64,000 nt of DNA from Nautiliales bacterium (lineage in GTDB: Bacteria > Campylobacterota > Campylobacteria > Campylobacterales > JAADDX01), in contig JAUUDM010000033.1 of NCBI GenBank assembly GCA_030826765.1, forward strand, positions 1 through 64,000. Reading direction: 5' to 3'. This document shows, one piece after another, positions 8,415 to 11,355 of the stretch. Each line of letters starts with the position of its first letter. Position 1 is the stretch's first letter. The translations under genes and the position numbers were made by a program. The notes below the pieces were generated by a model. It made no database searches. It saw nothing but the letters and a program-made list of their open reading frames with translations, and was not told where the DNA came from.

Positions 8415-10580
8415 ATGATAAAAAAATTAGATTTACAAGATTATATAAATTCTTTAGAATCACTTTTTGCAAGAAGTAAAAATTTTATTTTAGAAGGTGA
8501 TATAAATGTCCATTATAAATATATTCAAAAGTTACAAAAATATGACTATGTATCTCCTCCTACTATTATAAATTTAGATGAACAATTAATTAAATTAAAA
8601 AAACAAGGTGTTTTATCTCACAAAGAGATTTTTGAATTTGTTAAAATAATAAATTATTTCAAATATTTAAAGTCAAGAAAATGGAGTGATTTAGAAGAGT
8701 GGTTTCATAAAATAGAAATCCCAGATGAAATTGAAAATATAATAAAAAAATATGATAAAAAAGGAAATTTAACAGGAATTGAAGAGCTTGATAATATCAA
8801 TCAATTAATTTCTCAAAATAGAAGTAATATCCGTCAATCTTTATATAAAGTTGTAAATTATTCTAAACTAAGTAGCTATTTAGTAGATAGACAAATCCAC
8901 CTTGTAAATGATGAAGAGTGTGTAATGCTTAGAGGTGGATTTAATAGAGTTTTAAAAGGGGAAATAGTTGGAAGAAGTGCAAATGGATATTTTTATGTAT
9001 TTCCAAGTGAAATTTCAAGATTTAAAGATAGAGAAAGCGAACTTTTAAGCAAAAAAGAAGAAATAGAGTATCAATATGCAAAAGAATTTAGTGAAATTTT
9101 TACAAAATGGAATAAATTTCTAAGTTTTATAAATAAAGAGTTTGATAAGTTTGATTCATATAATGCCAGAATTAATTTAGCAAAAGGAAAAAATTTAGAA
9201 TTTATTCTACCTAAAAAAGATAAAAAAATAATTCTTAAAAATTTCTGTCACCCTGCTCTAAAAAACTGTAAAAGTATTGATTTAGAATACAATAAAAACA
9301 TTTTACTAATAACTGGAGTAAATGCTGGTGGTAAAACTATGCTTTTAAAATCAATCCTAACATCAGCTTTTATGGCAAAATATCTGCTTCCTATGAAAGC
9401 ACATCCTGATTCACATATAGGACACTTCAAAAACATAATAGCAATTATAGATGATCCACAAAGTGTAAAAAATGACATATCTACATTTGCAGGAAGAATA
9501 AAAGAGTTTGCAAAACTTTTTAATTCAAAAGATGCTTTAATTGGAGTTGATGAAATAGAACTTGGAACAGATGCAAATGAAGCAGCAAGTCTATTTAAAG
9601 TAATTATTCAAGAATTAATTAATCAAAAAATAGTTATTACAACTCACCATAAAAGATTAGCTTCACTTCTTGCAAATGATGAAAGAGTAGAACTTTTAGC
9701 AGCAATTTACGATGAAGAAAAACAAAAACCAACATATGAATTTATCCAGGGAACTATTGGAAGAAGTTATGCTTTTGAAACTGCTTTAAAATATGGAATT
9801 CCAGCAAGAATTGTTAATAAAGCTAAAAAAGAATATGGAGATGATTTAGAAAATTTAAATCTATTGATTGAAAAAACTGCTAAACTTGAACTTGAGCTTA
9901 AACTAAAAAATAGAGAAATTGATGAAAAACTTGAGAATATTAAAAAAATAGAAGAATCATTAAAATATCAAAAAGAAGAATTTAATAAAAATATTGAACA
10001 AGAAAAACTTAAACTATTAAAAGAGTATAATGAAGCAATTAAAGTTGCTAAAGAAGCCCAAAAAGCCAAAAATGAAAAAGAATTTCATCAAAAACTAAAT
10101 GAAGCAAATTCTAAAAAATCTCAAATTAAAATAAAAAAAGAAGATACTCATGAAAAAATAGAAGTTGGAGATAATGTAAAATATTTTAATTCCAAAGGAC
10201 AAGTAGTTTCAATAACTGGAAAAAATGCAATTATAGATGTAGATGGGAAAAAAATAACAGCTCCACTTAATGCACTAAAAAAATATATTAAAACTAAAAA
10301 ACTTAAAAAAGTATCTTTTAATAAACCAAAACCTTCTAAAATAGATGTAAAACTGGATTTACACGGAATGAGATATGAAGAAGCTATGGAAAAAGCGGAT
10401 AAATTTATAAATAATGCTCTTTTAGCAGGTCTAAATGAGATAGTAATTTATCACGGAATGGGAAAAGGGATTTTAGCAGCTGGAATTAAAAACCTTCTTA
10501 AAAGCCATCCTTTAGTAAAAGAATTCCACCCAGCACCACCAAATATGGGTGGATATGGAGCGACTATTGTTAAATTATAA
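8415..10580 (+). CDS. mutS2: MutS2 endonuclease/ATPase with C-terminal Smr domain
   Basis: TGVNAGGKTMLLKSI Walker A, DEIELGTD, LDLHGMRYEEAMEKADKF Smr domain. Confidence 0.93.
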   Translation: MIKKLDLQDYINSLESLFARSKNFILEGDINVHYKYIQKLQKYDYVSPPTIINLDEQLIKLKKQGVLSHKEIFEFVKIINYFKYLKSRKWSDLEEWFHKIEIPDEIENIIKKYDKKGNLTGIEELDNINQLISQNRSNIRQSLYKVVNYSKLSSYLVDRQIHLVNDEECVMLRGGFNRVLKGEIVGRSANGYFYVFPSEISRFKDRESELLSKKEEIEYQYAKEFSEIFTKWNKFLSFINKEFDKFDSYNARINLAKGKNLEFILPKKDKKIILKNFCHPALKNCKSIDLEYNKNILLITGVNAGGKTMLLKSILTSAFMAKYLLPMKAHPDSHIGHFKNIIAIIDDPQSVKNDISTFAGRIKEFAKLFNSKDALIGVDEIELGTDANEAASLFKVIIQELINQKIVITTHHKRLASLLANDERVELLAAIYDEEKQKPTYEFIQGTIGRSYAFETALKYGIPARIVNKAKKEYGDDLENLNLLIEKTAKLELELKLKNREIDEKLENIKKIEESLKYQKEEFNKNIEQEKLKLLKEYNEAIKVAKEAQKAKNEKEFHQKLNEANSKKSQIKIKKEDTHEKIEVGDNVKYFNSKGQVVSITGKNAIIDVDGKKITAPLNALKKYIKTKKLKKVSFNKPKPSKIDVKLDLHGMRYEEAMEKADKFINNALLAGLNEIVIYHGMGKGILAAGIKNLLKSHPLVKEFHPAPPNMGGYGATIVKL

Positions 10581-10610
10581 AGTTTTTACTTAAAAATCAT
10601 TTTTTTATGA

Positions 10611-10616
10611 TATACT
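10611..10616 (+). promoter_or_regulatory. extended -10 (TGATATACT) of RRM protein gene
   Basis: TTTTTTATGATATACTTC. Confidence 0.55.
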
Positions 10617-10631
10617 TCTATTACTAAAGAA

Positions 10632-10647
10632 AGAAACTTCGGTTTCT
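10632..10647 (+). promoter_or_regulatory. 5'-UTR hairpin with UUCG tetraloop
   Basis: AGAAAC-TTCG-GTTTCT, between predicted promoter and RRM start codon. Confidence 0.7.
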
Positions 10648-10682
10648 GTGTTTTAGAATTTATTACAAAGAGAACTTAGAAC

Positions 10683-10940
10683 ATGAACATTTATGTTGGA
10701 AATTTGGCTTATAGCCTAACAGAAGATGAATTAGCAAACGAATTTGCTAATTATGGTGAAGTAACTAGTGCAAAAATTATCGTTGACAGAGAAAACAACA
10801 ATAGAAGTAAAGGTTTTGGATTTATTGAAATGAGTGATGACTCAGCTGCTCAAAAAGCAATTGAAGAACTTAACGGTAAAGAAGTAGCGGGAAGAAACTT
10901 AAGAGTTAACGAAGCTAAACCAAGACAACCAAGATATTAA
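10683..10940 (+). CDS. RRM-type RNA-binding protein
   Basis: NIYVGNLAYSLTEDEL (RNP2) and RSKGFGFIEM (RNP1). Confidence 0.95.
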   Translation: MNIYVGNLAYSLTEDELANEFANYGEVTSAKIIVDRENNNRSKGFGFIEMSDDSAAQKAIEELNGKEVAGRNLRVNEAKPRQPRY

Positions 10941-10948
10941 TTTTATTA

Positions 10949-10981
10949 TACTAATATCCTTTTGGGATATTTAGTATTTTT
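10949..10981 (+). terminator. intrinsic terminator of RRM gene, overlapping 3' end of the opposing Hpt gene
   Basis: TACTAATATCC-TTTTG-GGATATTTAGTA (one bulged T) then TTTTT. Confidence 0.65.
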
Positions 10982-11355
10982 GGATTAATTACAGATAATT
11001 CTCCATTTTTCATAATTTCATCATACCATTTTCCTAATTGACTACTTGCTATAAATAACCAATCAATAAGCTCATCTGTTGCTTTATCTTTTTTACGAGC
11101 ATTTTCTAATACTTCTTCTACTAATTTTGCAAATATATTCACTCTATTTAATTTCAAAAATGCCGTAGCAGACTTCAAAGAATGAAAAATTCTAAAAAGT
11201 TCATTTACAGCATCTTCATAATCATTATTTAATCTCTCGATAACTAAATCTATCTCATCTATAATATAATCCCATTGACTCAGAAACTCTTCTACTATTT
11301 CAGGATCATTTTCTTCATTTAATTTATCTAAAATTCCCATAACCTTATTCTTCAA
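10951..11355 (-). CDS. stand-alone histidine phosphotransfer (Hpt) domain protein
   Basis: IFHSLKSATAFLKLNRV Hpt signature with His, all-alpha. Confidence 0.8.
   Translation of the reverse strand: MKNKVMGILDKLNEENDPEIVEEFLSQWDYIIDEIDLVIERLNNDYEDAVNELFRIFHSLKSATAFLKLNRVNIFAKLVEEVLENARKKDKATDELIDWLFIASSQLGKWYDEIMKNGELSVINPKILNIPKGY

Follow-up and report, generated by a model that had tools for sequence, protein, structure and literature searches.

Is the UUCG-capped hairpin in front of a small RRM protein gene of a Nautiliales bacterium a regulatory element, and what could it do for the mRNA? The hairpin lies in the window, which is the whole stretch of 64,000 nucleotides analysed here, and the features of the locus are collected in Table 1. 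The original prediction described an AGAAAC-UUCG-GUUUCU hairpin in a leader of about 60 nt upstream of an RRM gene. This hairpin is real: AGAAAC (10632-10637), the TTCG loop (10638-10641) and GTTTCT (10642-10647) can be read directly from the sequence, and folding showed that they are enclosed by an outer stem pairing CUAAAG (10624-10629) with UUUUAG (10651-10656). The leader counts 66 nt from the -10 to the ATG at 10683, close to the predicted length. The downstream gene was also correctly recognised; the Pfam match falls on the only single-RRM protein of the genome, the NCBIfam model NF058537 scores 121.6 bits (cut-off 100), and the protein is related to the structure 2KI2 of Helicobacter pylori HP0827 (6e-18).

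Table 1. Features of the RRM locus in the window, with the basis of each assignment
Feature	Position	Strand	Basis
Predicted extended -10 TGATATACT (hexamer TATACT, 10611-10616)	10608-10616	+	Sequence; keeps the spacing to the hairpin seen for TATAAT/TATAGT in relatives
Whole hairpin CUAAAG-aa-AGAAAC-UUCG-GUUUCU-gug-UUUUAG, 33 nt, predicted to be 5'-terminal	10624-10656	+	-6.8 kcal/mol; begins 7 nt past the -10, as in relatives
Inner UUCG-capped stem of the original prediction	10632-10647	+	Sequence; -3.4 kcal/mol on its own
Remaining leader, unpaired, with weak ribosome site AAAGAGA (10667-10673)	10657-10682	+	Sequence; only the last bases paired in the fold
Single-RRM protein, 85 aa	10683-10940	+	ORF; PF00076 2.2e-23; NF058537 above cut-off; related to 2KI2

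The gene upstream of the hairpin is mutS2, and its ORF ends at 10580. Synteny with mutS2 was considered as the cause of the hairpin and rejected, as neither mutS2 nor the downstream neighbour adjoins the RRM gene at any other locus tested. Because the flanking genes differ at these loci, the hairpin goes with the RRM gene and is not a leftover of the gene upstream. Other inverted repeats were also observed nearby. The repeat ACTAATATCC-TTTT-GGGATATTTAGTATTTTT at 10944-10981 lies between the convergent RRM gene and minus-strand ORF 10951-11355, and is probably a terminator shared by the convergent genes. A perfect 10-bp hairpin, AAUUAGCAAA-CGAA-UUUGCUAAUU at 10729-10752, lies within the RRM ORF some 47 nt past the start; on the minus strand its loop reads TTCG, and the residues encoded there are not common to the orthologues.

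Judging from the consensus -10, transcription would start near A10623, and the first stem base would then be at about +2. Since the outer stem begins 7 nt past TATACT, only about one unpaired 5' base is expected. The stem starts at offset 7 from the predicted -10 in the window and at offsets 6-8 in the relatives; its distance to the +1, itself placed from the -10, is a predicted one.

Within the window alone, with 20-kb stretches and shorter contigs serving as controls, the hairpin is only moderately unusual, and it is the comparison with relatives that makes the case convincing. A matching stability was reached by 1.6% of the 33-nt stretches on the plus strand, and UUCG loops with at least six perfect pairs occur four times in 306 kb of the genome (both strands), so that the predicted scarcity of stable hairpins was a fair description. 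The window taken by itself gives a moderate case, because the fold of the whole 101-nt leader has a z of -1.24 against shuffles, and an equally stable local hairpin is present in 10% of the other leaders if the promoter register is not fixed. The Rfam scan of the leader gave chance matches only. A hairpin that arose by chance in this genome, beyond the reach of the pattern seen in the relatives, is quite improbable. Such a reading could draw on the z value and on the window's own family, in which a single leader was read and the other sampled member has no RRM gene; however, the register equals that of the relatives, and only 1 of the 49 other leaders with a -10 in the window genome has an equally stable hairpin 5-9 nt past it.

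Of 399 Campylobacterales genomes sampled, 223 contain an RRM gene, and about 140 leaders were read. Among the families compared, f4 includes the Hydrogenimonas genomes; f11 and f13 are, by inference, Campylobacteraceae-type and Helicobacteraceae-type, respectively. The leaders of f4, f18 and f11 have a hairpin directly past the -10, and its letters vary both between and within families. For example, the f18 hairpins include CCCGUA-CAAA-UACGGG, CCCAAA-AAUU-UUUGGG and CUCGACC-AAGA-GGUUGAG; a hairpin of f4 reads UCCGUUUUAUAAAAAAUAUUGAAUUUUUUGUAAUUCGGA, and one of f11 reads ACCGA-ACAAA-UCGGU. The same layout was seen at single loci, including L103, C. majalis (L148; CCGU-aaau-ACGG, offset 7) and the Helicobacteraceae-type L259, in which a 21-bp hairpin (-26.9 kcal/mol) begins 6 nt past the predicted -10. 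The short leaders of the Arcobacter-type genus g10 and of f15 contain no such hairpin.

The register was evaluated by counting hairpins of -3 kcal/mol or below that start 5-9 nt past a -10. Among leaders with a -10, such hairpins were present upstream of the RRM gene in 15/15 (f4), 16/16 (f18) and 10/15 (f11) cases, versus 3/13, 2/14 and 2/20 control leaders of the same families. As the leaders are related, one leader per genus gives the fairer figure, the genera still being partly dependent: 22 of 45 RRM leaders have such a hairpin, compared with 37 of 313 controls, which came from 19 genomes and had their gene starts called by a simple script (Fisher p ~4e-8). About half of the genera fail this test. 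With the best-scoring -10 chosen first and blind to the hairpin, the 47 leaders of f1, f4, f11 and f18 showed a pile-up of hairpin starts at offsets 6 and 7 (19 and 21 counts), compared with about 2-3% per position in control leaders. Moreover, the first four transcript bases have a median unpaired probability of 0.25 in these four families versus 0.86 in the controls; the difference is weaker per genus (p = 0.03). Raw hairpin energy was also compared with that of other leaders, with the promoter register not fixed, and gave a weak signal.

The f18 alignment shows that pairing is maintained under sequence change. Six hairpin pairs are kept in 90% of the cells, and the covariation score of 0.48 (0.22 in shuffles) was reached by 0 of 500 shuffles. 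Both sides have changed in 12 cells, where shuffles gave 4.1; sliding the 3' arm by one column reduced the signal to less than half. Together with the unrelated arms of the different families, these indicate that pairing rather than sequence matters in the relatives. RNAalifold on a MAFFT alignment of f4 was discarded, the arms of differing length being misaligned; a global-pair alignment of f4 recovers the hairpin. A covariance model built from the f18 leaders (R1) does not match the window leader, and its matches to f11 leaders, found at the leader position, are weak (L054, E 0.004; L034, E 0.012). The original prediction had named a stem lacking upstream of orthologues as the observation that would speak against it. 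In the comparison its position and pairing were found to be kept; its sequence was not. Upstream of the RRM genes of several Campylobacterales families, a hairpin predicted to lie at about +1 to +3 is thus shown to be kept, with letters that change and pairing that is restored, and this pattern supports a functional leader structure.

An inverted repeat just past the promoter might also bind a repressor at the DNA level, and in many relatives such repeats do overlap the predicted transcription start. Nevertheless, the half-sites vary within one family though the pairing is kept, and G-U pairs occur (UUCG/CGGA in L048 of f4). A DNA operator is disfavoured because of these paired changes and G-U pairs, and it is highly improbable.

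The leaders of f4 differ in one respect from that of the window. Their hairpin leads into 5-8 consecutive T, such as CGGAGAGAGTTTTT in L010, and a terminator-like hairpin that halts a fraction of the transcripts early is possible in f4. The stem in the window lacks such a run, UUUUAG being itself an arm of the outer stem, and so do the stems of f18 and f22; the terminator scan of the window locus found no terminator-like site. A G+C-rich stem followed by a T run was seen in the f4 relatives only, and attenuation is very unlikely as the function of the hairpin.

The original prediction further proposed a temperature-responsive leader; an RNA thermometer would mask the ribosome site at low temperature. 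The predicted stability does drop with temperature, the outer stem being gone by 60 C. This claim is nevertheless not supported, because in the window the hairpin ends short of the ribosome site and the start codon, and both are likewise left free in f4, f11 and f18. A predicted hairpin at about 10680-10697 does cover the AUG, but it uses bases before the AUG that are not common to the relatives. An RNA thermometer is therefore hardly credible here.

The best reading, held with moderate confidence, is that a stem-loop at the 5' terminus delays the decay of the RRM mRNA from its 5' end. It is favoured over a protein-binding or ribosome-hiding element because tight coupling to the predicted +1 together with free sequence is required for such a stem-loop and not for the other two. 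The mRNA would begin with the stem-loop, the first pair being at about +2. RppH would act poorly on a triphosphate end with about one unpaired base, and RNase J would enter poorly there; the slower decay would give a longer-lived mRNA and a high, steady level of the RRM protein. The ribosome site downstream would stay open, and translation would not be blocked. Stem-loops at the 5' end stabilise mRNA in Escherichia coli and Bacillus subtilis. The RppH of B. subtilis requires two or more unpaired bases at the 5' end (PMC3997798). In H. pylori, breaking the 5' UTR stem-loop of vacA shortened the mRNA half-life 1.6- to 2-fold, and a mirrored stem restored it (PMC4843948), which provides a precedent within the phylum of the window. 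The window genome encodes RNase J (647 bits), RNase Y (583 bits) and RppH (NF001936, 249 bits), and the enzymes of 5'-end-dependent decay on which a stabilising stem-loop would act are thus present in the host. In this genome the RppH gene is directly followed by an aspartokinase gene (L264, 1411-3089).

The main rival is autoregulation, also raised in the original prediction, in which the RRM protein would bind its own leader, in the single-stranded part near the ribosome site or in the loop, and reduce the translation or the stability of its mRNA. The hairpin might present or insulate the site. The reading is plausible for RRM genes generally, since other phyla have curated structured RRM leaders (Chlorobi-RRM, RF01697), and RbpB, an RRM protein of Bacteroides with a preference for single-stranded RNA, has a CLIP site in its own transcript (PMC11697453). 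The retention of leader structure in many clades would also agree with it. On the other hand, RRM domains usually recognise single-stranded sequence, the loop and arm sequences differ between families with none in common, and protein binding would not need an exact link to the +1. A binding site beside the ribosome site was sought as U-runs of at least five before the start, which were not significantly enriched (27% versus 19% in controls, p = 0.23). The free letters of loop and arms give no support to a sequence-specific recognition of the hairpin. Autoregulation of the window gene is regarded as possible but rather unlikely, and it could hold together with a stabilising stem-loop.

Larger leader folds were also observed upstream of RRM genes in other families. 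In f20 (L013, L021, L049, L088, L091, L093, L096, L099 and L101) a kept fold carries GUUACC...GUUACGGGCAAAAGGUAAC, with paired changes. In f10 (L003, L020, L023, L041, L130 and L131) a 12-bp long-range stem connects the predicted 5' end with the stretch before the ribosome site and encloses a domain of about 60 nt. Such leaders would be more than a simple 5' cap needs. A broader reading is that a common pressure across bacterial phyla folds single-RRM leaders, the RRM proteins controlling their own mRNA through whatever structure exists; the 5' hairpins of Campylobacterales, the larger domains of f20 and f10, and Chlorobi-RRM would then have evolved independently. This broader reading is tentative and judged unlikely.

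The leader element is real, conserved and of a known kind, and it is better supported than the sequence alone could tell. Leader elements that keep position and pairing with free sequence tend to evade Rfam-style searches, which need sequence anchors; the element of the window type emerged only once the frame was set on the -10 box. If confirmed, it would serve as a simple test of 5'-end protection for bacteria dependent on RNase J, and as a first regulatory handle on the single-RRM proteins of Campylobacterota.

Several known systems resemble the locus. Chlorobi-RRM is likewise a folded leader placed immediately before a single-RRM gene; whereas RF01697 has a conserved sequence with a model of 73 positions, the window leader is unmatched (no match in 10500-11000 at E up to 10). 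The positive controls matched just upstream of their RRM genes, at 82.5 bits (L187) and 70.7 bits (L152). RF01697 exceeds its cut-off in two Chlorobiaceae leaders. Below the cut-off of 45 bits, it scores 41 bits in a Gammaproteobacteria MAG and 26 bits in a Marinimicrobia MAG, in both cases right in front of an RRM gene. The loci in this comparison were L177 (1400-1471), L198 (1403-1472) and the leaders of L192, L201, L203, L187 and L152. Similar UUUGUGC...GCAC hairpins at other loci suggest that the Chlorobi-RRM family is wider than Chlorobi.

In the rne 5' UTR, too, a hairpin precedes the gene of a protein that handles RNA; feedback through RNase E is proven there, whereas feedback at the window leader is hypothetical. 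RbpB and HP0827 belong to the same class of single-RRM proteins as the window protein; the binding site in its own mRNA is a feature of RbpB. The 5'-terminal stabilising stem-loops of E. coli ompA and papA have in common with the window type a hairpin near the 5' end, which is a predicted end in the window, a free ribosome site and the importance of pairing over sequence. The window type differs from these in recurring, with unrelated letters, in front of the genes of one family across a bacterial order, and its effect on the half-life of the mRNA is a predicted one.
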